54,291 bases of DNA. Origin: Albimonas donghaensis. Its GTDB lineage: Bacteria > Pseudomonadota > Alphaproteobacteria > Rhodobacterales > Rhodobacteraceae. A program made the position numbers and the translations under genes. Position 1 is the first letter of the stretch. Every line of letters begins with the position of its first letter. The DNA lies in NCBI RefSeq assembly GCF_900106695.1, contig NZ_FNMZ01000013.1, positions 1 through 54,291 of the forward strand, in the 5' to 3' direction. A model generated the notes under the pieces. It saw nothing but the letters and a program-made list of their open reading frames with translations. It had not been told where the DNA came from and did no database searches. Shown piece by piece: positions 1 through 54,291 of this stretch.

Positions 1-95
1 ACGCTGGACAAGATCAGCGCAGGTCTACGGGGGGCCGGGAAAGCAAACGAAAAGGACTGAGGTAACCGAGAAGTATCAGGGCTAGCGCAGGGTGA
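1..95. repeat. 95-bp terminal direct repeat (contig overlap of a circular molecule)
   Basis: Bases 1-95 are identical to bases 54197-54291. The overlap is exact and ends at both contig ends, as expected when an assembler opens a circular molecule at an arbitrary point. The true circle would be 54,196 bp. The repeat lies in the non-coding stretch between the start of the RTX protein gene (minus strand, start 54177) and the end of repA (233). It is therefore not a gene-level duplication. Confidence 0.93.
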
Positions 96-9917: not shown

Positions 9918-11906
9918 ATGAAGGGCTATCGTCGCGACATCGATGGTCTGAGGGCCATCGCCGTGCTGCCGGTCGTGTTCTCGCATGCCGGCGTCGCCGG
10001 CTTCTCCGGAGGGTTCGTCGGCGTCGACGTGTTCTTCGTGATCTCCGGCTTCCTGATCACCGGGATTCTGGCGCGGGAGATCGACGCAGGCCGTTTCTCG
10101 TTGCTGGGCTTCTACGAACGGCGGGCGCGGCGGATCCTGCCGGCGCTGTTCGCGATGCTCACCATCTGCCTGGCGGTCGGCTATGCGCTGTGTCCGCCCT
10201 GGATGTACTCGGCGCTGGCCAAGTCGGCGGTGGCGACGATCTTCTTTTCGTCGAACATGTGGTTTCTTTATTCCACGGGAGATTATTTCGGGAATTCGGC
10301 TGAGTACGAGCCGCTCCTGCACACCTGGTCCCTGGCTGTGGAGGAGCAGTTCTACCTGGTCTTCCCGCTGCTGCTGTGGGGGCTGGCGCGCTGGCGGAAG
10401 TCCTGGACATTGGCGGTCATCGCCGGCCTGTCGGCGGTCTCCTTCGTCGCGGCGGTCTGGGCGACGCAGGTGGCCCCGCTGTCGAATTTCTTCCTGACGC
10501 CGTTGCGGGCGTGGGAGCTGGGGCTGGGCGCGCTGCTGGCGCTCGGCGCCTTTCCGGGCACGGCGCGCCGGGGCGTGGTCGAGGTCGTGGCGGCGGCGGG
10601 GCTGGCGGCGATCTGCGCCAGCATCGTGCTGCTGACCGCCGAGACGCCGTTTCCCGGCCTGGCCGCGGCGCCGACCTGCCTCGGCGCCGCGGCGATCATC
10701 TGGGCGGGTGGCCAGCGCCAGACCTGGACGGGCCGGCTGCTGTCGACGCGGGCGGCGGTGGGGGTCGGGCTGATCTCCTATTCGCTTTACCTGTGGCACT
10801 GGCCGCCGCTGGTCGTCGCGCGCCTGTTCGGCGGGAGCGCGCATATCGAGGCGGGGCCGGCCGCCGCCTTGATCGTCCTGTCGCTGGTGCTGGCCGTGCT
10901 CAGCTGGCGCTTCGTGGAGCGGCCGTTCCGGGCGCGCCCGGTCGCGGGGCCCGAGGGACGGAGGTCCGGCTTCGGGCGGGGGGCGATCTTCGCGCTGTCG
11001 GGGATCGGGGCCGCGGCGCTGACCTGCGCGGGCGTGCTGATCTACGCGACCAACGGGGTCGAGGGCCGGGTGCGCGACGGCGCCCAGGACGCCTATGAGC
11101 AGGCGACTCGCCGCTCGGGGCTGGAAGAGCGCTGCCTGCCTGCAGGCCGACTGTGCACCTTCGGCGCGCCGATAGAGGAAAGCGGCGGCGTCCGGACACT
11201 GATCTGGGGCGATTCTCACGCGGCGGCCATGCTGCCTGGGCTGGAGGCTTGGCTACGCGGGGTCGGGCGGACCGGGGCGGCTGCGGTCAAGCTCGGATGC
11301 CCGCCGCTGTTGGGTCTGATCCGGCGTGATCTTGGGGTCGGGCATGACTGCGCAGGGTTCAACGCTGGGGTTGTGGACTGGCTCGACGCCCATCCAAACA
11401 TCGATACCGTGGTGCTTGTCGGTCGCTGGGCCTTGATCGCGAGCGGGACCCGCCCCTCGAACGAGACCCAGAAGGTTCCTGTGCTGGCCCTCGCGGCGCC
11501 TCTGGCGGGCGAAGATACGTCCGCCCCTGCCGAGATCTTTGAGACCGGACTGCGGGACACGCTGGCTGCGCTGCAGGCGCGAGGACGAAAGGCGATCCTG
11601 ATCGAGGGTGTGCCCGAAGTTGGCTTTAATGTGCCCAGGGCCTTCATCGCCCAGGCATTCCTTGGCATCCCCCCTCCGCCGACGCCGACCCGGGCGGACT
11701 ACGCGGCCCGCAGCGCTCCGGTCGACGCTGCTTTTGACCGGGCTGAGGAACGTTTTCCGATCGAGCGCCTGTCCGTGGCGGATCTGATGTGCGCGCCGGA
11801 CTGCCGGATCGTCGCGGAGGATGCGCCTCTTTACCGCGATGACGATCATCTTTCCATCCAGGGCGCCCGCTGGCTGGTGGCCAGGTTGTTCAAGTCAATC
11901 GAATAG
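9918..11906 (+). CDS. acyltransferase-3/SGNH fusion protein (OafA/OatA-like), copy 1
   Basis: A 662-aa polysaccharide O-acyltransferase. Residues 1 to about 370 form an acyltransferase-3 membrane domain, with DIDGLRAIAVLPVVFSHAG at the start, FERR-type loops and HTWSLAVEEQFYLVFP near residue 135. Residues from about 420 form a periplasmic SGNH domain, with GDSH near 430 and DDDHLS near 640 as catalytic blocks. The membrane domain should carry acetyl groups across the membrane and the SGNH domain attach them to the glycan. The ATG at 9918 starts the conserved domain; it has no strong Shine-Dalgarno, but a seven-codon leader ORF (9898-9921) overlaps it. A homologue lies at 49071-51188. Confidence 0.88.
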   Translation: MKGYRRDIDGLRAIAVLPVVFSHAGVAGFSGGFVGVDVFFVISGFLITGILAREIDAGRFSLLGFYERRARRILPALFAMLTICLAVGYALCPPWMYSALAKSAVATIFFSSNMWFLYSTGDYFGNSAEYEPLLHTWSLAVEEQFYLVFPLLLWGLARWRKSWTLAVIAGLSAVSFVAAVWATQVAPLSNFFLTPLRAWELGLGALLALGAFPGTARRGVVEVVAAAGLAAICASIVLLTAETPFPGLAAAPTCLGAAAIIWAGGQRQTWTGRLLSTRAAVGVGLISYSLYLWHWPPLVVARLFGGSAHIEAGPAAALIVLSLVLAVLSWRFVERPFRARPVAGPEGRRSGFGRGAIFALSGIGAAALTCAGVLIYATNGVEGRVRDGAQDAYEQATRRSGLEERCLPAGRLCTFGAPIEESGGVRTLIWGDSHAAAMLPGLEAWLRGVGRTGAAAVKLGCPPLLGLIRRDLGVGHDCAGFNAGVVDWLDAHPNIDTVVLVGRWALIASGTRPSNETQKVPVLALAAPLAGEDTSAPAEIFETGLRDTLAALQARGRKAILIEGVPEVGFNVPRAFIAQAFLGIPPPPTPTRADYAARSAPVDAAFDRAEERFPIERLSVADLMCAPDCRIVAEDAPLYRDDDHLSIQGARWLVARLFKSIE

Positions 11907-14854: not shown

Positions 14855-16477
14855 TCACCGGGCGGCGGCCGCCGCCCCCACATGGTCGATATGGTCGGGC
14901 AGGTCGTCCATCGCCGGGCGCAGGAAGTCGAGGAGACGCGCCTCGGCGGCGTCCGCGCTCTCGCCCGGCAGCACCGGCGTGGTGAGGCGGACGAGGGCGC
15001 CGTCGGTGCGGCCCTCGAGCGCGCCGGACCACAGCAGCATCATCTTGGCCTTGTAGTCCGAGGCGATGCGCCGCCCGCTCTGGTCGAACCAGTAATAGAC
15101 CAGAAGCTCGGTCATGCCCTTGCGGATCAGGGCGCGGTTGACCGGGAACGGGTCGATCGTGCCGAGCTTGCCGGCGAGGTCCACCACCTCGATCCGCTCC
15201 ATCTCCCAGCCGCCGCCGGGCAGGCAGATCTCGGGCGAATGGATGCCGCCCTTGGTCTGGTCGAGATACCAGGCCGAGAAGAAGCTGACCGCGGCCGACT
15301 CGCCCGGGCTGACATAGTTCTGCGACAGGTAGTCGTTGGCGGCGAGGGTCTTGGCCACCCCCGGCTCGAGCACCGCGGGAAGGCCCTCGGCCTGCCAGTC
15401 GCCGATCTGGCGCGGGAAGCTCGCCAGCGACAGCCGGTTCTGCGGGGCCTGCACGCGCACGTCCGCCACCTGCCAGGCCGCCGCGCCGGCCCCCAGCAGC
15501 ACCATCGCCGTGATCAGCGCCCGCGAGGGCCGGGTCAGCAGCAGGCGCTGGAACTGGGGCATGATCTCATCGAAATCGAGGTCCAGCGCCTCCGGGAGCG
15601 ACATGCGCGGCGCCGGCTGCAGGGCCAGCATCAGCCAGGCCAGCAGGAACATGATCAGGATGCAGCTGAGGAACACCACCCAGCCTTCCATCAGATGGGC
15701 GAAGCCCTCGGCCTGGTCGATGCCGTAATTGTTGACCAGCACGCCGACCAGCGCGATGCGCGCCGAGTTCATGAACACCGCCAGCGGCACGGCCGACAGC
15801 AGCAGCACCGCCTTGTGCCAGGTCGGCCCGCGGTAGAGCACCGCGAAGATGTAGCTGAACGACATGATCGGGAAGAGATAGCGCAGGCCCGAGCAGGCCT
15901 CGGCCACGTGCAGCCTGTAGATGCCCAGATCGATGATGTTGCCGTCGAGGAACACCGGCGTGCCGATCACCTGCAGCACCCAGACGCCCAGCTCGGACGA
16001 CATGAACTGCAGGACGGTGGAGACCTTGTAGTAGAACAGCCCCGGCAGCGGCAGCATGAAGCACAGATGCAGGACGGGGGGCCAGAATTCGCGGCCCTGC
16101 TTCCAGCCGAAGCTGATCAGGACCATGCCGCCGATCCACAGGATCATGGCGTAGGCGACGATGTCGCCGATATGGGCGAACTTGCCGACCAGCGCGATCA
16201 GCATGGCGAAGACCACCAGCGCCACGCCGGGCCAGCGGTTGGGGATGTCGCCGTGGCGGGGGGGCACGGTTTTCAGCTGGCGCAGGAACAGGAAGCCCGA
16301 GAGCAGCGGGATCAGCGGCCCGTGGCTGTATTCCGCGAGCTGCCAGGCCTCGATCAGGGTGGCGATGCCCTCGCGGAAATAGACCCCGGCGAAGGCGAAG
16401 GCGAGGACGAGGCAGACGAGCCCGAGCATCCCCTCGCCGCCGGCTGCGTCGCGCGTCCTGGCGGTGATGGTCTTCAT
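14855..16477 (-). CDS. xrtD: exosortase (XrtD type) fused to an EpsI domain
   Basis: A 540-aa protein joining two families. The N-terminal ~300 residues are a polytopic exosortase with the expected catalytic residues: C195 in AEACSGLRYL, R240 in NSARIALVG and H261 in GFAHLMEGW. The C-terminal ~200 residues are an EpsI domain with SLASFPRQIGDWQ, GGIHSPEICLPGGGW and an LVYYWF block. This fused architecture matches the VPLPA-CTERM-specific exosortase, hence the symbol. It should cleave and anchor proteins with a C-terminal sorting signal, probably in step with exopolysaccharide export. A likely substrate is the protein at 36389-37279. The ATG at 16477 has GGGGA about 5 nt ahead. Confidence 0.9.
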   Translation of the reverse strand: MKTITARTRDAAGGEGMLGLVCLVLAFAFAGVYFREGIATLIEAWQLAEYSHGPLIPLLSGFLFLRQLKTVPPRHGDIPNRWPGVALVVFAMLIALVGKFAHIGDIVAYAMILWIGGMVLISFGWKQGREFWPPVLHLCFMLPLPGLFYYKVSTVLQFMSSELGVWVLQVIGTPVFLDGNIIDLGIYRLHVAEACSGLRYLFPIMSFSYIFAVLYRGPTWHKAVLLLSAVPLAVFMNSARIALVGVLVNNYGIDQAEGFAHLMEGWVVFLSCILIMFLLAWLMLALQPAPRMSLPEALDLDFDEIMPQFQRLLLTRPSRALITAMVLLGAGAAAWQVADVRVQAPQNRLSLASFPRQIGDWQAEGLPAVLEPGVAKTLAANDYLSQNYVSPGESAAVSFFSAWYLDQTKGGIHSPEICLPGGGWEMERIEVVDLAGKLGTIDPFPVNRALIRKGMTELLVYYWFDQSGRRIASDYKAKMMLLWSGALEGRTDGALVRLTTPVLPGESADAAEARLLDFLRPAMDDLPDHIDHVGAAAAAR

Positions 16478-34994: not shown

Positions 34995-35870
34995 ATGAAG
35001 GGCATCGTCCTCGCCGGAGGCTCCGGCACCCGGCTCCACCCCGTGACCATCGGCGTCTCCAAGCAGCTGCTGCCGGTCTACGACAAGCCGATGATCTACT
35101 ATCCGCTCTCGGTGCTGATGCTGGCCGGCATCCGCGAGGTGCTGATCATCACCACCCCCCATGACGCCGGCCAGTTCCGCCGCCTGCTCGGCGACGGCGC
35201 CCAATGGGGCATGTCGATCAGCTACGCCGCCCAGCCCTCCCCCGACGGGCTCGCCCAGGCCTTCGTGATCGGGCGCGACTTCGTGGGCGACGACAACGTG
35301 GCGCTCGTGCTCGGCGACAACATCTTCTACGGGCACGGCTTCGTCGACCTGCTGGAAGCCGCCGCCGCCCGCACCTCGGGCGCCACCATCTTCGGCTACC
35401 GCGTCTCGGACCCCGAACGCTACGGCGTGGTGCATTTCAACGAGGCGGGCCTCGCGCTCGACATCGAGGAGAAGCCCCTCGCCCCCAAATCCAGCTACGC
35501 GGTGACCGGCCTCTATTTCTACGACAACGACGTGCTCGACATCGCCGCCTCCATCGCCCCCTCGCCCCGTGGCGAGCTGGAGATCACCGACGTCAACAAG
35601 GCCTATCTCGACCGCGGGGACCTTTATGTGGAGATGATGGGCCGCGGCTACGCCTGGCTCGACACCGGGACCCACAAGTCGCTGATGCAGGCCGGGGCGT
35701 ATGTGGAGACCATCGAGGACCGCCAGGGCCTCAAGGTCGCCTGCCCCGAGGAGATCGCCTGGCGCATGGGCTGGATCGACACCGAGGCGCTGCTGGCCCT
35801 CGCCGCCCCCCTCAAGAAGTCGGGCTACGGCGTCTATCTCGAGCGCATGGTCCACGAGCGGGTGTTCTGA
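34995..35870 (+). CDS. rfbA: glucose-1-phosphate thymidylyltransferase RfbA
   Basis: A 291-aa RmlA/RfbA enzyme that makes dTDP-glucose from glucose-1-phosphate and dTTP, the first step to dTDP-rhamnose. Typical blocks are [13 protein letters not shown] at the N-terminus, [48 protein letters not shown] and [10 protein letters not shown]. The ATG at 34995 has GGAG 7 nt upstream. It is about 19.6 kb from the rfbC/rfbD operon by the shorter way round the circle, so the pathway genes are split. rfbB was not found. Confidence 0.96.
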
Positions 35871-37646: not shown

Positions 37647-38990
37647 ATGAGGCATGAGCAGACCCCTATTCCGGACCCCGACCAGGGCCCGCCCCTCGGC
37701 CCGCCCGTCGGCGTCGAGCGCTTCGCCGAGGCCGCGCGCCTCTGCGCCGAGGGCCGCGAGGATCTCGCCCGCCGCGGTCACGCCCCCGACGGCGTCCGCC
37801 GCCTGCGCGCCTTCCCGCTGGCCGAGGCCGCGCGGCTCGCCGGCCTCGCCCCCGCCGCGCTCCGCAAGGCGCTGCGCGATGACCCCGCCCTGCCCCAGGG
37901 CGAGCCCGAGACACCCGGCGCGCCCCCCCGCTTCGCCTTCGACGACCTGATGCGCCTGCGCGCCCGTCTCGCCGCGAAACCGGGGGCGAAACCCGGCGCC
38001 GCCCCCCTGCCCGCCCGGCCCGAAGGCGCGGCGCCGCGCATCCTCGCGGTGGCCAATTTCAAGGGCGGGGTCGGCAAGACCTCGCTGGCGGCCCACATCG
38101 CCATGGCCGCGGCGCTGGACGGGCTGAAGGTGCTGGCGGTGGACCTGGACAGCCAGGGCTCGCTGACCTCGCTCTTCGGCGCGCGGATCGAGGACGCGTG
38201 GGAGACCGCCTATCCCCTGATCGCCCGCGACTACGCCCACGCCCGCACCGCCGCCGGCCTGCCGCTGGACGACGAGGCGCTGGAGCGGGCCGCCGCCATG
38301 TCCCCGGCCGACGTCATCCGCCCCACCCACTGGCCCGCCATCGACCTGATCGGCGCGCAGCTCGACCTCTACTGGGCCGAGTTCCAGATCCCGGTCTGGC
38401 GCCTCGCCCTGCGGTCCTGGAAGCTGTGGGACGGGCTGGCCGACGCGCTGGAGGAGGCGGCGCGGGACGGGGGCTACGATCTCGTCATCCTCGATACGCC
38501 CCCCGCGCTCGGCTACCTGACCATCAACGCGCTGGCGGCCGCCGACCTGCTGCTGGTGCCGCTGGGGGCCTCGTTCCTGGAGTTCGAATCCACCGGGCGC
38601 TTCTTCGACATGCTGCACGCCACCTTCGCCTCGATCGAGGAGGGGGAGGCGTCGGGAACCCGCTTCGAATGGGACGCGGTGCGCTGCGTGCTGACCCGCT
38701 ACGACGCCGCCCAGCAGGCCGAGATGGCGGCGCTGATGGCGCATTGGTTCGGCGACATCCTGGCGGGGCGCAGGCTCGACCTGACCGCGCTGGCGGGGCA
38801 GGCGGGGGAGCAGACCCGCGCCCTGCTCGACGCCGATCCGCGCGACTTCAACCGCGAGACCTACGCGCGCGGCCGCGACGCCTTCGACCGGGTCTGGGAG
38901 GAGATGCGCGGCCTCCTGCTGACCGCCTGGGCGCGCGACGTGGACGAGGGGACCGGCCCGGTTCGCCGCGAAACCGAGGAGACCCGCTGA
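37647..38990 (+). CDS. parA: plasmid partition ATPase ParA
   Basis: A 447-aa ParA-type ATPase. The N-terminal ~110 residues contain a helix-turn-helix-like segment (LAEAARLAGLAPAALRKAL), as in autoregulating ParA proteins. A Pro/Ala-rich linker follows. The deviant Walker A, KGGVGKTS, lies at 139-146, then VDLDSQGSLTSLFG and VILDTPPALGYLT. The start at 37647 is chosen because the open frame upstream runs through the 37556-37573 palindrome; GGAG lies 8 nt ahead. It overlaps parB by one base and should segregate the plasmid together with it. Confidence 0.95.
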   Translation: MRHEQTPIPDPDQGPPLGPPVGVERFAEAARLCAEGREDLARRGHAPDGVRRLRAFPLAEAARLAGLAPAALRKALRDDPALPQGEPETPGAPPRFAFDDLMRLRARLAAKPGAKPGAAPLPARPEGAAPRILAVANFKGGVGKTSLAAHIAMAAALDGLKVLAVDLDSQGSLTSLFGARIEDAWETAYPLIARDYAHARTAAGLPLDDEALERAAAMSPADVIRPTHWPAIDLIGAQLDLYWAEFQIPVWRLALRSWKLWDGLADALEEAARDGGYDLVILDTPPALGYLTINALAAADLLLVPLGASFLEFESTGRFFDMLHATFASIEEGEASGTRFEWDAVRCVLTRYDAAQQAEMAALMAHWFGDILAGRRLDLTALAGQAGEQTRALLDADPRDFNRETYARGRDAFDRVWEEMRGLLLTAWARDVDEGTGPVRRETEETR

Positions 38991-40078
38991 TGGCCCGCCG
39001 TCGCCTGACCCTGCCCGCCGCGGATGACGCGCCGACCCCGGCGCCCGCGCCCCGCCGCCCCGCCGCCCCCTTCGGCGGCGCGCCCATCGCGGCGGCCGCC
39101 GGCGAGGCCGCCCGCGCCGGGGCCGAGGCCGCCCGCGACGCCCGGCTGCTCGCCCAGGCCGAGGCCGAAGGGCGGCTGCTGATCGACATCCCGCTCGACC
39201 GCATCGAGGCCGAGCACCTCGCCCGCGACCGCGCCCCCCGCGCGGTGGAGGACGAGGAGACCGAGGCCCTCGTCGCCTCGCTGCGCGCCCATGGCCAGCG
39301 GACCCCGGCGGAGGTGCTGGCGCTTGGCGAAGGGCGCTACGGGCTGGTCTCGGGCTGGCGGCGGCTGGGGGCGCTCCGGGCGCTGCACGCCCAGACCGGG
39401 GAGCCGCGCTTCGGGGTGCTGCGGGCGCTGGTCCGCGGGGCGGGGCAGGGGGACGGCCCCCCCGCGGACGCCGCCGCCTATGTGGCGATGGTCGAGGAGA
39501 ATGAAATCCGCGTCGGCCTCAGCCCCTATGAGCGGGGCCGCATCGCGGTGGTGGCCGCCGAGCGGGGCGCCTTCGAAAGCGTCGAGGCGGCGGTGGACCG
39601 GCTGTTCGCCGCGGCCTCGAAGGCCAAGCGGTCGAAGATCCGCAGCTTCGCGACGCTGCATTCGGGGCTGGGCGACCTGCTGCTGCACGCCCCCCGCATC
39701 TCCGAGCGGCTGGGCCTGCGGCTCGCCGACCTGCTGCGCGAGGGCGGCCCCGCCGTGCGCCGGGAGATGCGCGCCGCCCTGGCCGACGCGGACCCGGAGC
39801 GCGAGGCGGAGGGGGAGCTGGCGCTGCTGGCCCGCGCCGCCGAGGCCGCCGCGGCGCGCATCGGGTCCTGGTCCGAGCCCGCCGAGGAGGTTTCGCGCGC
39901 GAAACGGGGGGGGCGCCCGCGGCGCGAGGAGGTCTTCTCCCGCGCGCTGGTCCCCGGCCTGCGCCTGACCGGCTACGCCGAGGGCGAGCGGGTGGTGTTC
40001 GAGCTGTCGGGACCGCGGGCGGGGGAGCCGGAGGTGCGGGAAAAGGCGCGGGCGCTGCTGGAGAGATTGGGCGATTGA
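38990..40078 (+). CDS. parB: plasmid partition protein ParB
   Basis: A 362-aa ParB-family protein. After an Ala-rich N-terminus come the ParB/Srx-type nuclease-fold motifs (IPLDRIEAEHLARDR, LVASLRAHGQRTPAEV, YGLVSGWRRLGALRAL), then EENEIRVGLSPYERGRI and a helix-turn-helix region (FATLHSGLGDLLLHAP, LGLRLADLL). The ATG at 38990 shares its A with the parA stop (TGATG), so translation is coupled. The gene contains a candidate parS palindrome at 39890-39905 near its 3' end. Confidence 0.94.
   Translation: MARRRLTLPAADDAPTPAPAPRRPAAPFGGAPIAAAAGEAARAGAEAARDARLLAQAEAEGRLLIDIPLDRIEAEHLARDRAPRAVEDEETEALVASLRAHGQRTPAEVLALGEGRYGLVSGWRRLGALRALHAQTGEPRFGVLRALVRGAGQGDGPPADAAAYVAMVEENEIRVGLSPYERGRIAVVAAERGAFESVEAAVDRLFAAASKAKRSKIRSFATLHSGLGDLLLHAPRISERLGLRLADLLREGGPAVRREMRAALADADPEREAEGELALLARAAEAAAARIGSWSEPAEEVSRAKRGGRPRREEVFSRALVPGLRLTGYAEGERVVFELSGPRAGEPEVREKARALLERLGD
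39890..39905. promoter_or_regulatory. candidate parS palindrome 2 (within parB)
   Basis: GTTTCGCGCGCGAAAC, a perfect 16-bp palindrome identical to the core of the site upstream of parA. It lies inside the coding sequence of parB, where it encodes VSRAKR. The two sites bracket the operon, about 2.3 kb apart. Confidence 0.6.
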
Positions 40079-40234
40079 ACCCGTTTAAGTCATTGAAAAT
40101 AAAAGATTTTAAAGAGCGCGGCGGGCGTTCCGCAGGGCGACGCGCTCCGGTCCTGCCGCATCGCGGCGCATGACCGGCCCGGCTATGCTCGCGCGCCGCA
40201 GCGGCGGAGCGGGCTCGAATTCGAGGGGATCAAG

Positions 40235-42898
40235 ATGAACGACGCGGAACCCATGCGCACGGCGCCCGGACGCGCCATGGAGATCGTGTCGCTGGAGGGG
40301 GTCAGCTCGGTCGCCTTCGTCGAGGCGGCCTTCGCGCTTTACGACGCCGGGACGCCGTTCTCGATCACCCGCAAGGAGATCGACCTCGGCGCCTATCCGC
40401 AGCTGGTGGTGACGCGGACCATCGCGGTCGCGGCGGATCCGGGCTGGGGGCGCTTCGCCCATGCGCCGCGGACCGACGACGCGCCGGCGCAGATCGTGTT
40501 CACCTCGGGCACCGAGGGGGCGCCGAAGCCGATCGTGCTGAGCCATCGCAACCTCGCCGACGTGGTGGCGCGGTTGAACGAGGTGATGCAGGTCACGGAC
40601 GAGATCCGCGAATATATCGGCGTGCCGGTGACGTATTCGTTCGGGCTGGGCCGCGCGCGGGCGGTGTCGGCGGCGGGCGGGGCGTTCTTCCTGCCGGCGC
40701 GGTTCGACCCCTCGGAAATCCGGGCGATGCTGGAGGCGGGGGAGATCAACGCGGTCTCGGCCGTGCCCAGCCTGTGGCGGATGGTGCTGGCGGCGCCCGA
40801 GGCGATGGGGCGGGCGGGCGAGAAGGTCCGCTGGATCGAGATCGGCAGCCAGTACATGAGCGGGGAGGAGAAGGCGGCGATGAAGCGGCTCTTCCCCAAC
40901 GCGCGGATCGTGCAGCATTACGGGCTGACCGAGGCGTCGCGCACGGCGTTCCTGGTGGTGTCCGAGGAGACCGGCGAGGCGCTGGAGAGCGTGGGGCGGG
41001 CCACCGGCTCGGCGGCGGTGGAGATCGACCCGGAGGGGGCGATCCGCATCCGCGGCGACCATGTGGCGACGGGGATTCTCGGGGCGGACGGGCGGGTCGC
41101 GGCCCTGGCGGGGGCCGACGGCTGGCTGACCACGAAGGACCGCGGAGAGATCGGGGCGGACGGGCTGCTGCGCTATCTCGGCCGGCTCGACGACCAGATC
41201 AACATCGCGGGGATCAAGCTGGCGGCCGAAAGCCTCGAGGCGGAGATCAACGCGCTGGTCAACCTGCCGGGCGCTTTCGCGGTGGCGGCGATCCCGGATG
41301 CGCTGCGCGGCGACGGCGTGCTGCTGGCGCTGACCGAGGACTTGGGGGAGCGGGGCGAGCTGGTGGAGGCGGCGGCGGGGATCGCGCTGCGGGCCCGCGG
41401 GCTGGCGCAGGGCGGGCTGGTCAAGGTGCTGCATGTGCCGGGCCTGCCCGTGACCGACAGCGGCAAGGTGCGGAGGCGCGCGCTGCGCGAGATGCATATC
41501 GCGCGGCTGGCCGAGCCGGGGCTGGCGGGCGCGGTGGGGCTGGGCGACGCGATCGAGGCGGGGCCGGACGCGGACCTGACCGAGGGCGAGCGCCGGGTGG
41601 CGGACGCCTGGCGGCGGGTGGTGGGGGCGGCGGATATCACGCCGGGCCTGACCTTCTACGATGTGGGCGGGGATTCGCTGAGCTCGGTGCAGATCGGGCT
41701 GGTGATGGAGGGCGCGGGCTTCGCGCGCGCCGCGGTGCGCGCCACGCTGGAGGGCCGCCCGGTGCGCGAGGTGGCGTTGCTGGACGGCGCCGGGGCGGGG
41801 GGCGAGGCGGGCGAGGCGGCCCCGGCCGAGCTGCCGCGGCGCACGGTGGAGAGCTGGTCGATCAACGCGGTGCGCGGGCTGATGGTGCTGTCGGTGCTGA
41901 TCTCGCACTGGGGGCCGGGGGTGTTCGAGCGGGTGGGTCTTGCCGCGGCGGCGGACCGCTGGATCAGCATGATCTACCGGATGGGCACGCCGGGATTCTC
42001 GTTCGTGTTCGGGCTGGGGCTGGGCTTCTTCATGCTGCCGGGCTTCGCCAGGAACCGGCCCAGCGTGGCGCGGCGGCTGCGCGCGGCGCTGGCGCTGGTG
42101 CTGGTCGGGATGGCGCTGATCGCCGCCGCCAAGCTGGGCGGGCTGGCGATGCGGGGGGGGGCGATCGACGGCGGCGACGTGGCGCGCGCCTTCTACAGCG
42201 TGCTGGCCTATTACGCGCTGGCCCTGACCACGGCGATGCTGTGGCTGGAGGGGTTGAGCCGGGTCTCCCGCCCGGTTCCCGTCGCGCTGCTGGTCGCGGC
42301 GGCGATGTGGGGGCTGTGGGAGATCGCGGGCCCGCTGATGGCGGGGCCCCACATGAACACCCTGCTGGAATGGCCGCGGATGATGTTCGGCGGCGGCGGC
42401 TACACCTATTTCAAGGTCTCGACCACGGCCTTCCTGGGCCTGGCGCTGGGGGCCTGGCTTTCGCGGCGCGAGGACGTGGCGGGCGCGCAGCGCCTGCTGA
42501 TCGGGGGCGGCGGCATCGCGCTGCTGTTCGCCGTGCTGGCCGCGATGGACATCTGGGGGGCGGGGACGTTCGAAACCCGCGGGGCGCCGGTCTTCAGCAG
42601 TTTCCTGGGGGCGCTGCTTTACGCGGCTTTCGGGACGCTGATGCTGGGCCTGTTCATGGCGCTGACCCGACGCTGGAACCGGCTGGGGGCGATCCCGCGC
42701 GGGATCGCCCAGGCGCTGATCGTCACCGGCGGGCTGGCCCTGCCGATCTTCGCTTTCCATGAGGTGGTGATCCCGACCAAGGATATGCTGCTGCTGGCCG
42801 GGCTGCCGGGCCTGGTGGCGCTCGCCCTGCCGCTGGGGGCGTTCCTGCTGGGCATCGGCTACGCCTGGCGGCGGTTGTTCCGCATGTATTTTCGCTAG
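40235..42898 (+). CDS. adenylation domain-carrier domain-membrane acyltransferase fusion
   Basis: An 887-aa three-part protein. Residues 1 to about 450 are an AMP-forming adenylation domain with core motifs FTSGTEGAPK near 88, GLTEAS near 230, TKDRGEIG near 300, RLDDQINIAGIKL near 315 and SGKVRR near 408. Its N-terminal lobe is unusually short. Residues ~455-525 are a phosphopantetheine carrier with S481 in DVGGDSLSS. From ~540 there are about ten membrane segments opening with INAVRGLMVLSVLISHWG, the conserved Arg/His block of acyltransferase-3 proteins (H558). The likely job is to activate an acid, load it on the carrier and pass it across the membrane onto a glycan. Substrate unknown. AGGGG lies 6 nt before the ATG. 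Confidence 0.85.
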   Translation: MNDAEPMRTAPGRAMEIVSLEGVSSVAFVEAAFALYDAGTPFSITRKEIDLGAYPQLVVTRTIAVAADPGWGRFAHAPRTDDAPAQIVFTSGTEGAPKPIVLSHRNLADVVARLNEVMQVTDEIREYIGVPVTYSFGLGRARAVSAAGGAFFLPARFDPSEIRAMLEAGEINAVSAVPSLWRMVLAAPEAMGRAGEKVRWIEIGSQYMSGEEKAAMKRLFPNARIVQHYGLTEASRTAFLVVSEETGEALESVGRATGSAAVEIDPEGAIRIRGDHVATGILGADGRVAALAGADGWLTTKDRGEIGADGLLRYLGRLDDQINIAGIKLAAESLEAEINALVNLPGAFAVAAIPDALRGDGVLLALTEDLGERGELVEAAAGIALRARGLAQGGLVKVLHVPGLPVTDSGKVRRRALREMHIARLAEPGLAGAVGLGDAIEAGPDADLTEGERRVADAWRRVVGAADITPGLTFYDVGGDSLSSVQIGLVMEGAGFARAAVRATLEGRPVREVALLDGAGAGGEAGEAAPAELPRRTVESWSINAVRGLMVLSVLISHWGPGVFERVGLAAAADRWISMIYRMGTPGFSFVFGLGLGFFMLPGFARNRPSVARRLRAALALVLVGMALIAAAKLGGLAMRGGAIDGGDVARAFYSVLAYYALALTTAMLWLEGLSRVSRPVPVALLVAAAMWGLWEIAGPLMAGPHMNTLLEWPRMMFGGGGYTYFKVSTTAFLGLALGAWLSRREDVAGAQRLLIGGGGIALLFAVLAAMDIWGAGTFETRGAPVFSSFLGALLYAAFGTLMLGLFMALTRRWNRLGAIPRGIAQALIVTGGLALPIFAFHEVVIPTKDMLLLAGLPGLVALALPLGAFLLGIGYAWRRLFRMYFR

Positions 42899-43035: not shown

Positions 43036-43959
43036 ATGAGCTATGTGCTGATCTCGCCCTGCCGGAACGAGCAGGACTACATGCGCCGCACGCTGGACTC
43101 GGTGATCGCGCAGACCGTGCGGCCGGATCTGTGGATCGTGGTCGACGACGGCTCCACCGACGACACGCCCGCGATCCTGGCCGAATACGCCGCGAAGCAT
43201 GACTGGATCCGCCCGGTTCCCAAACCCGACCGCGGGCATCGCGCCGTGGGGCCCGGCGTGATCGAGGCGTTCTATTTCGGGCTGAGCCAGATCGAGATCG
43301 ATGACTTCGAGTTCCTGTGCAAGCTCGACCTCGATCTCGACCTGCCGCCGACCTATTTCGGCGGGCTGATCGCGCGGATGGAGGCGGATCCGCGCATCGG
43401 CAGCTGCTCGGGCAAGCCTTACTTCCGGGCGGGCGGGCGCATGGTCTCCGAGAAATGCGGGGACGAGATGTCGGTGGGCATGACCAAGTTCTACCGCCGC
43501 GCGTGCTTCCAGGAGATCGGGGGCTTCGTGCAGGAGGTGATGTGGGACGCCATCGACTGCCACAAGTCGCGGCAGCTCGGCTGGATCGCGTGCAGCTGGG
43601 ACGACCCGGAGCTGCGCTTCGAGCATCTGCGCCCGATGGGCACCTCCCAGACCGGGGTGCTGACCGGGCGGATGCGGCACGGGTTCGGGCAGTATTACAT
43701 GGGCAGCGATTTCTGGTTCTTCACCGCCACCTGCGTCTACCGCTTCGCGCATCCGCCCTATCTGCTGGGCGGGCTGGCGACCTGGTGGGGCTACATGCGG
43801 GCCTGGATCAAGGGCGCGCCCCAGCATGGCGACGCGGGCCTGCGCGGCTTCATCCGCGACTATCAGCGCCGGGCGATCCGGGTCGGCAAGGGCCGGGCCA
43901 CCGCCGAGGTCGTCGCCCGTCAGACCCCGGTCTGGGAGGCGCGGGGGGGCGCCGCCTGA
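43036..43959 (+). CDS. glycosyltransferase family 2 protein
   Basis: A 307-aa GT2 enzyme. LISPCRNEQDYMRRTLDSV and IVVDDGSTDDTPAIL mark the nucleotide site. A notable KLDLDLDLPPTYF carries the DxD motif, and the ED-type acceptor block is DAIDCHKSRQLGW. The enzyme is largely soluble with one C-terminal hydrophobic patch. AAGGAG precedes the ATG at 43036 by 5 nt. It follows the adenylation-acyltransferase fusion on the same strand after 137 bp and converges on a sulfotransferase gene. Confidence 0.88.
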   Translation: MSYVLISPCRNEQDYMRRTLDSVIAQTVRPDLWIVVDDGSTDDTPAILAEYAAKHDWIRPVPKPDRGHRAVGPGVIEAFYFGLSQIEIDDFEFLCKLDLDLDLPPTYFGGLIARMEADPRIGSCSGKPYFRAGGRMVSEKCGDEMSVGMTKFYRRACFQEIGGFVQEVMWDAIDCHKSRQLGWIACSWDDPELRFEHLRPMGTSQTGVLTGRMRHGFGQYYMGSDFWFFTATCVYRFAHPPYLLGGLATWWGYMRAWIKGAPQHGDAGLRGFIRDYQRRAIRVGKGRATAEVVARQTPVWEARGGAA

Positions 43960-45915: not shown

Positions 45916-48324
45916 TCAGGCGGACGACCAGATGAAGTCCGGCGCAGGCCTGAGCCCCTCGGGCAGGGCGCCGGCGGCGCCGCCCTGCATCAGGGCCTTG
46001 AGCCAGGCGGCTTCGCGGGCGGAGTCGTAATCGGCCGCGACCCTGGCCCGGCCGGCCTCGCCCATGCGGGCGCGCAGGGCGGGGTCGTCGAGCAGGGTGG
46101 CGATGGCCTCGGTCAGGGCGGGGACGTCGCCCGGCGGGACGGTGAGGCCGGAGACCCCGGTCTCGACCAGCTCGCCCACGCCCGCCACCGCGCTGGCGAC
46201 CACGGGGCGGCGGCTGGCCAGCGCCTCCATCAGCACCACGGGCACGCCCTCGGCGAAGGAGGGCAGGACGAAGATGTCGGCCTCTTCCATGTGGCCCGCG
46301 ACCTGGTCGGGGGTCTGGTAGCCGGCGAATTCCACGGCGTCGGTCAGGCCGAGGGCGGCGGCGCGCGCCTCCAGCCAGGCGCGGTCGGGACCATCGCCGA
46401 CCAGGCGCAGGCGGAGGCCGGGGCGGGTTTCGCGCAGGCGGGCGAAGGCCTCGAACAGCATCGGCAGGCCTTTGACGCGGGCGAGGCGGCCGACGAAGAG
46501 CAGGCGGGGAGCGGCGGCGTCGTCAGCGGCGGCGGCGGCGGCGTCCGTCCGGGACGGGGCGGCGTCGTAGAGCGCGGGGTCCACCCCGCAATGCACGAGG
46601 CGCAGCTTGCCCCAATGGGCGGGGTCGGAGAACAGCATGCCCTGGCTGCGGCAGAAATGGCTGATGCAGGCGACGAAATCCGCCCGCGCGATCTTCACGT
46701 CGAGCCGCCAGCGATAGGGCTCATAGAACAGGGTCGGCCCGTGCATGGTGAAGCCGAAGGGGATGTCGGCGAGTTCGGCGGCCAGCATGGTGACGGTGCA
46801 GCTGGAATCGCCGAAATGGTTGTGCAGGCGCCGCGCGCCGGCGCCGCGCAGATGGGCGGCGAGCACGCCCGCTTCGAGAAAGTAGAACAGCTGGTAGAGG
46901 AAGGCTTTCGGCCCCGGCGGGCGGGTGCGGATGGCGAGGCCGAGCGCCGACAGCCAGCGGCGGGGCGCGGCCGCGAGGACCGAGGCGTGGGCGCGGAGCA
47001 GGCGCGCGGGGCTGCGGGCGGTCTCGATGACGTGGAAGGTGCGGGCGGCCTCGGCGCGCTCGGCCTCGCCCAGCAGCTGGTCGGCGCCGGCGCGGCGGAT
47101 CGAGCAGGGCAGGACCTCGACGCCGAGGGCGCGGAGCGCGTCCATCTCGCGCTGGATGAAGGTGTGGGAGACGCGGGGATGCTCGCCGGTCAGGTAGGCG
47201 ACGGGGGAGGGGGGGGACGCGGACATGGAAGACTCCGGGGCGGGCTCCGGGGCGGCCTCCGGGGCGGGGGCGCCCTTGTATTCGATGATGCGCCCGCGCT
47301 CGCCGCGGGCGTGGGCGCGGGCGAAGCGCAGGGCGCCCATGGCCTCGGCCGGTTTGCCCAGCATGGTCAGCGCGCCGTAGAGGCGGGCATGGGCGGGCGG
47401 ATCGCCGAAGGCGGCGCGGCGGTGGCGGGCGATGCGCAGGGCCATGGCCGGGTAGGCGAGAAGGGCGAGGAGGGCCGCGGCCAGCCCCCAGGGCCCGAGG
47501 CCGGGGACCAGAAGCGCCAGGATCAGGGCCGCGAGAATCCCCGCCGGGACCGCCATGCCCCAGAAGCGCAGGCGGGCCAGCGGGCGGCGGTTGTAGCGGT
47601 CGGGCTCGGACCCGTAGGCGGCGGCGCCCTCGGCATAGGACCAGCCGGTGCGCTCGGTCCGCTTCCACCATTGGCCCCAGCGGGTCATGGCGGCGTCGTG
47701 GAGCGTCATCTCGGCGTCGAGGCGGGCGAGGCGCCAGCCGCGGCCGCGCAGGCGGCGGTTCAGCTCGGGTTCCTCGCCGCAGATGAAGGCGGGGTCGAAG
47801 CCCGCCACCGCATGGAAGGCGTCGGCGCGGTAGAGCGCGTCGCCCCCGACGGCGGCGGCGGGGCCTGTGGGCGTGTTCCACTCCATGTCGCAGAGGCGGT
47901 TGAAGGGGGAGGCGTCGGGGAAGCGTTCGCGACGGCGCCCGGCGACGGCGCAGAGGCCGGGGTCGGCGAGCAGCGCGGCGCGTCCCGTCTCCAGCCAGCC
48001 GGGTTGCAGGGTGCAGTCGCCGTCGATGAACTGGATCAGGGCCGGGGGGGCGGGGAGGGCGGCGAGCGCGGCGGCGCCGGCGTTGCGGGCGCGGCCGGCG
48101 GTGAAGCCCTGGGCGGTGTCGAGATGCACGACCTGGACGCCGAGCGCCTCGGCCCGCGCGGGGCTGCCGTCGGTGGAGCCGCTGTCGACATAGACCATGG
48201 GCCCGAGCAGGCCGGCGTCGGCCAGCGCGCGGGCGGCCTCGAGGCAGGCGACGAGGCGGGCGCCCTCGTTGCGGCCGATGGCGACGAGACCGATGACGGG
48301 ATCGGGGCCGATGGCGGGGGTCAT
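45916..48324 (-). CDS. GT2-GT4 fused glycosyltransferase
   Basis: An 802-aa open frame containing two enzymes. Residues 1 to about 345 are a GT2 enzyme (AIGRNEGARL, VYVDSGSTDGS, FIDGDC, CGEEPELNRRL) with membrane segments at its end, closely similar to the gene at 12791-13789. That paralogue stops after LIEYKGG; here IIEYKGA continues through a Pro/Ala/Glu linker. Residues from 367 are a GT4 enzyme (PRVSHTFIQREMDAL, LLFVGRLARVKGL, FAEGVPVVLMEALA). M367 (ATG at 47226) keeps its own GGAG Shine-Dalgarno, so a separate 436-aa GT4 may also be made. The ATG at 48324 is the chosen start. Confidence 0.86.
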   Translation of the reverse strand: MTPAIGPDPVIGLVAIGRNEGARLVACLEAARALADAGLLGPMVYVDSGSTDGSPARAEALGVQVVHLDTAQGFTAGRARNAGAAALAALPAPPALIQFIDGDCTLQPGWLETGRAALLADPGLCAVAGRRRERFPDASPFNRLCDMEWNTPTGPAAAVGGDALYRADAFHAVAGFDPAFICGEEPELNRRLRGRGWRLARLDAEMTLHDAAMTRWGQWWKRTERTGWSYAEGAAAYGSEPDRYNRRPLARLRFWGMAVPAGILAALILALLVPGLGPWGLAAALLALLAYPAMALRIARHRRAAFGDPPAHARLYGALTMLGKPAEAMGALRFARAHARGERGRIIEYKGAPAPEAAPEPAPESSMSASPPSPVAYLTGEHPRVSHTFIQREMDALRALGVEVLPCSIRRAGADQLLGEAERAEAARTFHVIETARSPARLLRAHASVLAAAPRRWLSALGLAIRTRPPGPKAFLYQLFYFLEAGVLAAHLRGAGARRLHNHFGDSSCTVTMLAAELADIPFGFTMHGPTLFYEPYRWRLDVKIARADFVACISHFCRSQGMLFSDPAHWGKLRLVHCGVDPALYDAAPSRTDAAAAAADDAAAPRLLFVGRLARVKGLPMLFEAFARLRETRPGLRLRLVGDGPDRAWLEARAAALGLTDAVEFAGYQTPDQVAGHMEEADIFVLPSFAEGVPVVLMEALASRRPVVASAVAGVGELVETGVSGLTVPPGDVPALTEAIATLLDDPALRARMGEAGRARVAADYDSAREAAWLKALMQGGAAGALPEGLRPAPDFIWSSA

Positions 48325-49070: not shown

Positions 49071-51188
49071 TCATCCGGGGGCGTCCGTGGCGGGGGCGTC
49101 CGTGGCGGGGTCGCCCTCGACGGGGGCGGACTCAGCCAAGGACCCCAGCGCCCGGGCCAGCGCCTCGGCGCCTGCAAGGCTGGGATGGTTGGTGTCGAAA
49201 TAGAGCGCGCGGCCATCCCGCGCGCCGTAGCAGGCGCGGGCGTCGCAGAAGGCGGGGGGGAGGGGCGGGGTCTCGACCCCGAGCGCGCGCAGGCGGGGCA
49301 GGAGAGCCTTCAGCTCGGCCGTGCGGGCGGCGTGGTAGGATGGGGGAAGGGCCTCGTGCGGGCCGTCCTCGGTCCAGCGCAGCCGGATCCAGCTCTCGAC
49401 CGGCTGGACCAGTTCGGGGACCGCGGGGGCGAGGATCACCCGGCGGCCCGAAGCGCGCAGCCGGGTGGCGAGGGCGATCAGGGACTCGGCATAGAGGGCG
49501 CGTTTTTCGGCGGCCCCTTCGGGGCTGTCGGGAAGCGGCGGGCCGGAAAGGGGGCCGAGGATGCGATCCGTCCGGTCCGAGGGCGACGCGGCGAGGTCGG
49601 CCTCGGTCTTGCCATGCAGGTAGATGGCGTGGCGCCAGGACAGCGCCACCGGGATCGTGGGGCGGGCCTCCAGCCAGGCGACCGCCGCGGCGGTCCAGGC
49701 GGTGCAGCCGGGATTGTCGGGGTTGTCGGAGGCGAAGGTGAGCGCCGGCGGGCAGGCGGAGGCGGTGAGCTCGACCAGGGTTTCCCCGGGGGGCAGGCGA
49801 CGGGCGAGGACATAGGCGAGCTCCACCCCGTGGCTGTCCCCCAGCACGGCGAGGGCGGGGGGGCGGGCGGAGGCCTGGCGGGTCGGCCGGCCGTCCGCCC
49901 CGATCCGGCAGGCGCCGTCGGGGCCGATGGCCAGCATCCGCCCGGGCACGTGGTGGCAGCTATCGCGCAGGGGGGAGGGGCGGGCGCTGTCGAAGAGGGC
50001 GACCTGCCAGGGCGCGAAGCGAGCGGGGGCGAGGCCCCCGGTCCGGTCGGCGACGAGGCCGACCGCGACCAGCGCCGCCAGCGTCCCCCCGGTGAGCGCC
50101 AGGAAGGGACGGGTCGGCAGGCGGGCGGGGTCGCGGAACGGTTGCTCCACGAAGCGCCAGGAGGCCCAGGCCAGCGCCAGGGTCAGGGCGGTGAGGGCGG
50201 CCATCAAGACCGGGGAGGGGGGGGTGAAGCTCGCCAGCCGGGCGAAGGCGAAGACCGGCTGGTGCCAGAGATAGGCGGAATAGGAGATCAGGCCGAGGGC
50301 GGTGAGCGGCGGCAGGGACAGGAGGCGGGCGGCGGGGCCGCCGGGAAAGACCAGGATCAGCACGGTTCCCGCCACCACCGGCAGGCAGGCGAGGCCGGGG
50401 ACGGGCGCCGAGGGCGGGACCAGCGCCAGGCCCGCGAGGATCAGCGCGAGACCCGCGGCCCCCGGAGCCCCCCCCGCCCGGCTGCGCCGCGACCAGGCCT
50501 GCGCGGCGGCGAGGCGGGCGGCGAGCCCCCCCGCGAGGCCCGGGGCCAGCGCCGCGCCCGGCCGGGTCAGAATGCCCGCCAGCGCGCCGGCCAGCAGCTC
50601 CCACGCCCGGAAGGGGGGCAGGTAGAAGGCGGCGGAGGCGTGGGGGCCGCGGGCCGCGATCTCGGCCGCCGCGAGGCTGGCCAGCAGGGCGGCGAATAGC
50701 AGGGCGGGGACGGCGGCGGGGCGCCGCCAGGCGAGGAGGAGGAGGGGGGGGAAGGCCAGATAAAACTGCTCCTCGACGGCGAGGGACCAGGTGTGGAGCA
50801 GGGGCAGGGTCTCGGCCGCCGGGGTGAAATAGTCCGAGGTGAGGAAGAAATACAGGTTGGAGGCGGAGAGCGCGGTGGCGACCAGGCTCTGCCCCATGGC
50901 GTCGAAGCGGTCGGGGGCGGCGAGGAGCCAGGCGGCGGGGAGGCAGGCGAGGCACATCAGGGCCAGCGCGGGCAGGATGCGCCGGGCGCGGCGGATCCAG
51001 AAGGCGCGGAGCGAGAAGGTCCCGCGGTCGAGCCCGGTCGCCATCATGCCGGCGATGAGGAAGCCCGAGAGCACGAAGAACAGGTCGACGCCCAGAAAGC
51101 CGCCGGGGAGCGGCGCCCCGGCATGGGTGGCGATGACGGCGCCCACGGCGATGGCGCGCAGTCCGTCGATGTCCTTCCTGTGGCGCAT
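49071..51188 (-). CDS. acyltransferase-3/SGNH fusion protein (OafA/OatA-like), copy 2
   Basis: A 705-aa homologue of the protein at 9918-11906. The membrane domain opens DIDGLRAIAVGAVIATHAG and contains LPLLHTWSLAVEEQFYL. The periplasmic SGNH domain has VLGDSHGVEL near residue 450 and YFDTNHPSLAGA near 663. It should O-acylate the polysaccharide, probably at a different position from copy 1. The C-terminus ends in a short PATDA repeat. The ATG at 51188 has a GGGA-type Shine-Dalgarno. Confidence 0.88.
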   Translation of the reverse strand: MRHRKDIDGLRAIAVGAVIATHAGAPLPGGFLGVDLFFVLSGFLIAGMMATGLDRGTFSLRAFWIRRARRILPALALMCLACLPAAWLLAAPDRFDAMGQSLVATALSASNLYFFLTSDYFTPAAETLPLLHTWSLAVEEQFYLAFPPLLLLAWRRPAAVPALLFAALLASLAAAEIAARGPHASAAFYLPPFRAWELLAGALAGILTRPGAALAPGLAGGLAARLAAAQAWSRRSRAGGAPGAAGLALILAGLALVPPSAPVPGLACLPVVAGTVLILVFPGGPAARLLSLPPLTALGLISYSAYLWHQPVFAFARLASFTPPSPVLMAALTALTLALAWASWRFVEQPFRDPARLPTRPFLALTGGTLAALVAVGLVADRTGGLAPARFAPWQVALFDSARPSPLRDSCHHVPGRMLAIGPDGACRIGADGRPTRQASARPPALAVLGDSHGVELAYVLARRLPPGETLVELTASACPPALTFASDNPDNPGCTAWTAAAVAWLEARPTIPVALSWRHAIYLHGKTEADLAASPSDRTDRILGPLSGPPLPDSPEGAAEKRALYAESLIALATRLRASGRRVILAPAVPELVQPVESWIRLRWTEDGPHEALPPSYHAARTAELKALLPRLRALGVETPPLPPAFCDARACYGARDGRALYFDTNHPSLAGAEALARALGSLAESAPVEGDPATDAPATDAPG

Positions 51189-54196: not shown

Positions 54197-54291
54197 ACGC
54201 TGGACAAGATCAGCGCAGGTCTACGGGGGGCCGGGAAAGCAAACGAAAAGGACTGAGGTAACCGAGAAGTATCAGGGCTAGCGCAGGGTGA
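54197..54291. repeat. second copy of the 95-bp terminal overlap
   Basis: Exact copy of bases 1-95, marking circular closure. On the circle this sequence exists once. It holds the upstream region of the RTX glycoside-hydrolase-like gene, which reads away from it on the minus strand. Confidence 0.93.

Follow-up and report, generated by a model that had tools for sequence, protein, structure and literature searches.

A single-chain adenylation, carrier and AT3-like membrane protein of Albimonas donghaensis as a candidate carrier-fed acyltransferase

How might a membrane acyltransferase be supplied when the domain that activates its acyl group and the carrier that holds it belong to the same polypeptide? 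This question is raised by an 887-amino-acid (aa) protein encoded on contig NZ_FNMZ01000013.1 of the alphaproteobacterium Albimonas donghaensis (assembly GCF_900106695.1), the whole 54,291-nucleotide length of which is hereafter called the window. The protein comprises an adenylation (A) domain, a carrier domain and a 10-helix membrane domain in one chain. The reading favored here, to which we assign a probability of slightly below 0.6, is that it serves as a self-charging, carrier-fed transmembrane acyltransferase, a Dlt-like device built on the fold of the acyltransferase-3 (AT3) proteins and the transmembrane acyltransferase (TmAT) superfamily.

In the proposed mechanism, the A domain would convert a carboxylic acid to an acyl-AMP (an alpha-amino acid is probably not the substrate) and would then load the acyl group onto the phosphopantetheine arm of S481, both activities being predicted from motifs that are present in the protein. 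The carrier, which precedes the first transmembrane helix (TMH1) by about 18 residues, is expected to face the cytosol, and the loaded arm could enter the AT3 pore as acyl-coenzyme A (CoA) does in ordinary AT3 proteins. H558 and R547 may then assist in transferring the acyl group to an acceptor at the outer face of the membrane, as published AT3 work suggests. Judged by gene context, that acceptor would most likely be a glycan of the exosortase-linked polysaccharide locus carried by the plasmid.

Domain layout and placement of the membrane domain

An 883-aa shadow open reading frame (ORF) occupies the opposite strand (40109-42760). The forward frame is considered to be the conserved one because seven near full-length relatives match it, from two Lutimaribacter species, Paracoccus, Qipengyuania and three metagenome-assembled genomes. 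Six of these relatives are uninterrupted, with 36-54% identity in the alignment, and the seventh (L004) is frame-shifted. The window protein and the six uninterrupted relatives together make up a seven-row alignment.

Pfam recognizes PF00501 at residues 75-281 (E 2.2e-26) and PF00550 at residues 454-489 (E 2.7e-4), the latter with 21.5 bits, narrowly above the cut-off of 20.8. In the A domain, G92, T93, G95 and K98, Y229, G230, T232 and E233, D302, R317, G410 and K411 are invariant in all seven rows, and the same holds for the A3, A5 and A10 motifs and the GGxSL carrier serine. S481, which sits in an invariant GGDSLS, and R547 and H558 of the membrane domain are likewise constant. Among the 24 fused proteins described below, a pattern search found A3, A5 and the carrier serine in every row, with an A10 pattern that missed some rows, and the carrier motif GG[DTN]SL is present in 24/24.

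The C-terminal part requires more careful placement. By itself it has no Pfam match at E<=5, and so does not reach the PF01757 cut-off. A relative with the same domain order, L007, matches PF01757 over positions 3-322 of 326, again below the cut-off (E 4.8e-4), and sister proteins with other membrane-domain types match above it (L014, 1.7e-13; L019, 9.6e-21). An AlphaFold2 model of residues 528-887 (predicted local distance difference test 90.0, predicted template-modeling score (pTM) 0.88) has the 10-helix TmAT fold, with model helices 292-306 and 308-315 occupying the expected place of the broken ninth helix. When the model was compared with the PDB using Foldseek, the top three matches were structures of human HGSNAT (8vlg, 8vkj and 8vli; probabilities 1.00, 1.00 and 0.99), with template-modeling scores relative to the query of 0.50-0.54 and modest E values of 0.025-0.27. 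These were the sole high-probability structures among the 50 matches listed, the fourth having a probability of 0.16. Furthermore, R-X10-H is described as the AT3 motif in PMC9833829.

Membership of the membrane domain in the AT3/TmAT superfamily is therefore well supported by the Pfam matches of relatives, the fold and the motif. It is assigned to the superfamily rather than to PF01757 as scored because the window domain lacks a PF01757 match. Two other views of the C-terminal part, as a transporter or as a domain of no known fold, are ruled out by the PF01757 matches of relatives and the HGSNAT fold matches. The initial annotation, made from the DNA letters alone, had proposed an A domain, a carrier and an AT3-like membrane domain in one chain, with S481 and H558 as key residues. 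Domain search, relatives, structure prediction and motif all agree with this layout, and both residues have proved to be invariant.

Relatives of the fused protein and the acyl donor

The system had been regarded initially as the least described in the window. It is not a one-off, however, and an architecture unique to the window is ruled out by 24 uninterrupted proteins (the window protein included) that carry an A domain, one or more carriers and an AT3 domain in this order. Their hosts are Rhodobacterales, Sphingomonadales and Phyllobacterium, and others lie on plasmids of Actinomycetota. The membrane domains fall into four types, namely type I with 11 members (the window protein, L001, L002, L003, L005, L006, L007, L028, L030, L031 and L032), type II with five (L020, L021, L033, L034 and L036), type III with three (L035, L037 and L038), and type IV with five, on plasmids of Rhodococcus fascians, Rhodococcus opacus, Mycolicibacterium chubuense, Arthrobacter and Phyllobacterium. 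The frame-shifted L004 and the broken L022 were excluded from these counts; the latter, from Neorhizobium galegae (L022:9953-12064), belongs to type II and is annotated in two pieces, a ligase and a hypothetical protein.

In the family sample, 10/295 genomes have a relative at E<=1e-60. With a profile at E<=1e-70, the class sample gave 1/385 and the phylum sample 2/398, the host genome being counted in each, and two of three genomes of the genus have a relative. A tblastn search of plasmids with the window AT3 domain returned nothing at E<=0.01. Among 357 plasmid records, 40 were listed and four fetched; L023, which has another C-terminal half, was not used. One relative search yielded 16 records, from which H54, H55, H56, H58, H59, H60 and H62 were left out.

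The first core motif of the A domain starts at residue 90 in the window protein. Of the 18 other type I-III proteins, 15 have it at 77-94, and L006, L032 and L038, whose starts are called further downstream, have it at 63, 31 and 44. In all five type IV proteins it starts at 122-136. The short N terminus of the A domain that had been remarked upon at the outset is real, and is a trait of types I-III but not of type IV.

The two halves of the window protein were compared separately with those of seven of the ten other type I proteins, all five of type II, all three of type III and three of the five of type IV. The A-carrier half shares 44-75% identity with its type I counterparts, 40-46% with types II and III, and 22-24% with type IV. 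The AT3 half is 29-56% identical to those of the same type I proteins, and BLAST gave no better than E 0.02 for it against types II-IV. At matched A-carrier identity (L007, 43.7%; L033, 44.2%), the AT3 E values are 6e-24 and 1.1, respectively. This pattern suggests that the membrane domain may have been exchanged under a conserved loading half, the alternative being very unequal rates of change. Since a similar A-carrier cassette is found with AT3 domains that clearly differ, the acyl group would be of one kind and the acceptors several.

Variants of the coupling were also encountered. Carrier domains stand in tandem in L031 (three) and in L032 (four). An AT3 gene of Sphingomonas hankookensis (L088; 2480-3499), whose product has neither the TMH1 acid nor the RxxR motif discussed below, shares 17 bases with the end of an ORF of 125 aa (2119-2496) that contains a TDSLSF site. 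No NCBIfam model matched the small ORF, which is taken as a putative carrier on account of its motif and of the overlap, and the 5.8 kb read contains no annotated A domain. This gene pair would be a split version of carrier-AT3 coupling. As a separate observation, both multi-carrier genes are immediately preceded by a gene for a TauD-type dioxygenase (L031:7414-8349 and L032:7162-8130), an enzyme that may oxidize the carrier-bound acyl group.

Evidence on the donor comes from the residues that recognize CoA. In the view taken in PMC12423673, penetration of the membrane by free acyl-CoA is made possible by AT3 proteins, and the acyl-CoA site consists of the TmAT residues that are most conserved, including the DxxR of TMH1 and the RxxR of TMH3. 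OafB simulations described in PMC9833829 place Arg14, Arg74, Lys279 and Arg338 at the 3'-phosphate of CoA. The TMH1 and TMH3 positions were counted in the 24 fused AT3 domains, one split pair, four near unfused AT3 proteins (those fetched of eight records) and, as controls, 28 PF01757 proteins of relatives. The controls are drawn from 40 PF01757 rows, ten without a locus and the partial L063 and L069 having been dropped.

In the fused AT3 domains, R-X10-H (R547/H558 in the window) is kept in 24/24, as are the TMH2 Gly and the TMH9 Tyr or Phe, and the TMH9 His is kept in 23/24. The acid three residues before the TMH1 Arg is found in 0/24, compared with 24/28 controls and 3/4 near unfused proteins (Fisher 5e-11, where the rows are related and Fisher values are thus not independent tests). 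In the window protein, the DxxR of TMH1 is incomplete, with the Arg present and the acid replaced by N544. A strict column count finds RxxR in 0/24 fused proteins, 25/28 controls and 4/4 near unfused proteins. A shift-tolerant search finds [RK]xx[RK] in TMH3 of 7/11 type I proteins, 1/13 proteins of types II-IV, 26/28 controls and 4/4 near unfused proteins. The proposal that RxxR was lost in all 24 proteins was accordingly withdrawn for type I. A poor fit to the Pfam profile does not account for the difference in type III, because L019, which is the same gene as L038, has a score of 74.6 bits, within the 63.9-125.6 bits of the controls. A site for the phosphates of CoA would be useless to carrier-bound pantetheine, and the residue pattern is therefore consistent with a carrier donor, most of all in types II-IV.

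The alternative that survives best is that the AT3 domain still uses free acyl-CoA, with the A-carrier half making or storing acyl groups for another enzyme or raising the local supply. Acyl-CoA, rather than acyl carrier protein, is argued to be the AT3 donor in passages of PMC9558356. The Arg of R-X10-H, at the place of the CoA-phosphate contact Arg14 of OafB, is kept in all 24 fused proteins, and the literal [RK]xx[RK] persists in 7/11 of the window type, with the RRLR of the window protein one residue off the aligned RxxR place. Together, the kept Arg and the RRLR speak against complete loss of the CoA site. The TMH1 Asp is also reported to be dispensable in OacB (section 6 of PMC12423673), and 4/28 ordinary AT3 proteins lack the acid as well. 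Several further results weigh on the same side, against a carrier donor. The full-chain model has a pTM of 0.46 and hence offers no predicted docking of carrier and AT3 domain. In the host genome, a PF01648 search gave one gene, AcpS-like by eye, with no Sfp-type gene recognized, and a search with an Sfp-type protein gave weak places only (E 0.02). In addition, the residue losses may represent a single inherited event: a single clade of all carrier-coupled AT3 domains is not rejected (approximately unbiased (AU) test, p 0.28).

Continued use of free acyl-CoA is nevertheless considered unlikely. It must be reconciled with the absence of the acid in 24/24 proteins and of the RxxR pair in 12/13 proteins of types II-IV, while the pore and catalytic positions are kept. 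Moreover, no other known carrier-using enzyme is present among the annotated neighbors, in an annotation that covered part of the window genes. We infer, rather than demonstrate, a switch of donor, because the TMH1 Arg is retained in every type and the window type has, in addition, a shifted RRLR. In the AT3 tree, type III groups with unfused AT3 proteins (Shimodaira-Hasegawa-like approximate likelihood ratio support 92), and types I and II/IV lie elsewhere, with weak deep forks (77). Repeated loss of the CoA-contact residues was rejected as a proven event, given these weak forks, the AU result and an independent-pair test that had at most two pairs and no power.

Plasmid context, acceptor and activated acid

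The first and last 95 bases of the window (1-95 and 54197-54291) are identical, and the contig probably represents an entire circular plasmid, some 54.2 kb in size, that bears polysaccharide genes. Besides the genes in Table 1, it holds those for RmlC, RmlD, a nucleotide-sugar dehydrogenase, glycosyltransferases and a sulfotransferase, as well as three ordinary AT3 genes. The distance between the gene for the exosortase XrtD and that for the fused protein is less than 8 kb in L001, L002, L003 and L005, about 10 kb in G249, about 24 kb in the window and about 38 kb, on the same contig, in G126. In the family sample, XrtD occurs in 4/4 type I genomes (the host included) versus 69/295 overall, or in 3/3 versus 65/291 when the host is excluded (Fisher 0.012). 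Weighing on the other side, XrtD and the gene are on different contigs in G273 and G1024. The polysaccharide and exosortase genes of the plasmid favor a glycan acceptor, which is plausible for the window type on the basis of this context.

Next in strength, and also unlikely, is the possibility that the product is a small molecule, such as a metal-binding compound or a lipid, which the AT3 domain acylates or releases. Four of five type IV loci (L080, L081, L083 and L084, not L082) lie beside ATP-binding cassette importer genes annotated as iron or substrate-binding, and XrtD over the cut-off was found in 0/6 type II/III genomes. The importer of L080 has weak NCBIfam scores and phosphonate-type relatives. 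Against a small-molecule product, type I genes are found in polysaccharide/exosortase loci (the window, L001, L002, L003 and L005), and the type IV A-carrier halves bear the low identity to the window protein noted above (22-24% in three of five compared). Two side observations concern these loci. Some type IV genes are near metal-resistance genes, and L007:1057-2034, checked as an exosortase candidate, did not prove to be one.

The nature of the activated acid can be approached through the A4 region, which in the window protein reads SFGLGRARAVSAAGG. The Asp of A4 anchors the alpha-amino group in amino-acid A domains. This Asp of the nonribosomal peptide synthetase (NRPS) type is absent here; in the same alignment, SFGLGR stands against the SFDIS of the PvdL amino-acid A domain, with Gly137 aligned with the Asp. 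Gly137 lies inside an FGL motif that is invariant in 7/7 rows. In comparisons with the PDB, MatB ranks first in the A-domain fold list and second in a single-sequence list, and a profile search places NRPS proteins above MatB. A non-amino carboxylic acid is preferred because Gly137 replaces the A4 Asp and MatB ranks high in the fold and single-sequence lists. An amino acid as the activated substrate, which the initial annotation had entertained, fares poorly on these same grounds, and an alpha-amino acid appears unlikely from the residues present. Aminoacyl transfer as in D-alanylation, with the A domain loading an amino acid, is thus quite improbable, even though NRPS proteins head the profile list and both the A domain and the carrier are similar to parts of NRPS enzymes. 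Finally, a degenerate relic without function is very improbable, since the catalytic positions are invariant across rows at 36-54% identity, although the gene is rare (10/295 family genomes) and L004 and L022 are broken.

A broader scheme, whose odds seem just short of even, is that a branch of the AT3/TmAT superfamily gave up free acyl-CoA and is fed by a carrier in the same chain. Its cassette would have been re-coupled to different AT3 lineages, placing one kind of acid onto a range of acceptors, with exosortase-linked polysaccharides at one end and, in Actinomycetota, molecules of the envelope or of metal uptake at the other.

Other genes of the window also have unusual layouts. An ORF at 45916-48324 on the reverse strand (802 aa as called) joins family-2 and family-4 glycosyltransferase regions. 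Two AT3 proteins (9918-11906, forward; 49071-51188, reverse) have long C-terminal extensions and partial SucT similarity (147.8 and 88.7 bits; cut-off 1275).

Table 1. Features of the fused gene and its surroundings in window coordinates
Feature	Coordinates	Strand	Evidence or remark
A-carrier-AT3 protein, whole gene, 887 aa	40235..42898	+	Open ORF, relatives, Pfam
Short N-terminal remnant of A domain, residues 1-74, common to types I-III	40235..40456	+	
Adenylation domain, residues 75-421	40457..41497	+	PF00501 75-281; MatB alignment reaching residue 421; MatB heads fold list
Carrier domain, residues about 450-517	41582..41785	+	PF00550 454-489; helices in model
S481, predicted phosphopantetheine site, GGDSL	41675..41677	+	Invariant 7/7; GG[DTN]SL 24/24
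AT3/TmAT membrane domain, residues about 535-886	41837..42892	+	Model, HGSNAT fold matches, PF01757 matches of relatives
R547-X10-H558 motif of TMH1	41873..41908	+	N544 at place of Asp in most ordinary AT3 proteins
RRLR, residues 613-616	42071..42082	+	One residue off aligned RxxR place of TMH3
H842 of TMH9 (LPIFAFH)	42758..42760	+	Invariant 7/7; His in 23/24 fused AT3 domains
RepA-like and RepB-like partition genes, directly upstream	37647..40078	+	TIGR03453 212 bits, TIGR03454 43.5 bits, both below cut-off
Family-2 glycosyltransferase, directly downstream	43036..43959	+	PF00535 E 1.9e-15
VPLPA-CTERM exosortase XrtD	14855..16477	-	TIGR04152 612 bits, cut-off 400
RmlA glucose-1-phosphate thymidylyltransferase	34995..35870	+	TIGR01207 over cut-off

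Comparison with known systems

Each part of the fused protein has known counterparts. The A domain is like MatB (4FUQ/4FUT), a malonyl-CoA synthetase, in fold, at 22-23% identity. However, MatB makes a CoA ester, and its P-loop motif lies about 70 residues further from the N terminus than that of the window protein. Another AMP-forming ligase, ligase_PEP_1 (TIGR03098), is an exosortase A-associated acyl-CoA ligase named for exosortase loci, but it is a separate protein, whereas the window A domain is fused to a carrier and an AT3 domain. Scores against this model (94.6 bits for the window protein and 158.7 for the type IV L081) are far below the cut-off of 592.35. NRPS proteins of the Pls/PosA family, such as epsilon-polylysine synthetase, also combine an A domain, a carrier and membrane helices in a single chain. 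Their C-terminal half has tandem soluble domains, with TIGR02353 as the terminal tandem domain, and by this description they would be set apart from the window protein.

On the membrane side, OafB, OatA, SucT and the AT3-SGNH fusions share with the fused proteins a 10-helix fold, R-X10-H, the TMH2 Gly and the TMH9 aromatic residue. The fused proteins add an N-terminal A-carrier half, and they differ in the missing TMH1 acid (24/24) and the missing RxxR (12/13 in types II-IV). Among known AT3 fusions, those with SGNH domains and with alanine racemase (VanT) are given in PMC9558356. Literature searches covering the starts of abstracts, with subscription papers and bioRxiv outside their scope, found no paper on the A-carrier-AT3 architecture, and the main text of PMC12423673 does not use the terms carrier protein, phosphopantetheine, AMP-binding, adenylation or non-ribosomal.

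A self-charging chain would bear on how AT3 proteins choose their donor, by separating residues that recognize CoA from those that recognize only the pantetheine arm. If the proposal is true, it would also offer a covalent model of carrier-to-membrane transfer, with a parallel in DltC and DltB, and a possible use in placing chosen acids on surface polysaccharides.

The Dlt-like logic that was originally seen in the joined domains is taken as supported. In the DltA-DltC-DltB(-DltD) system, adenylation is followed by a carrier thioester and then by the action of a membrane acyltransferase on an envelope polymer (described in part in PMC4792211). Dlt consists of several proteins with a membrane acyltransferase of the MBOAT family (DltB), whereas the window protein is one chain in which the C-terminal part is a TmAT and the A4 Asp is absent. 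The TmAT superfamily is set apart from MBOAT proteins in section 5 of PMC12423673. Outside the fused proteins, such activation, holding and membrane transfer appear to be divided between free CoA and separate proteins.

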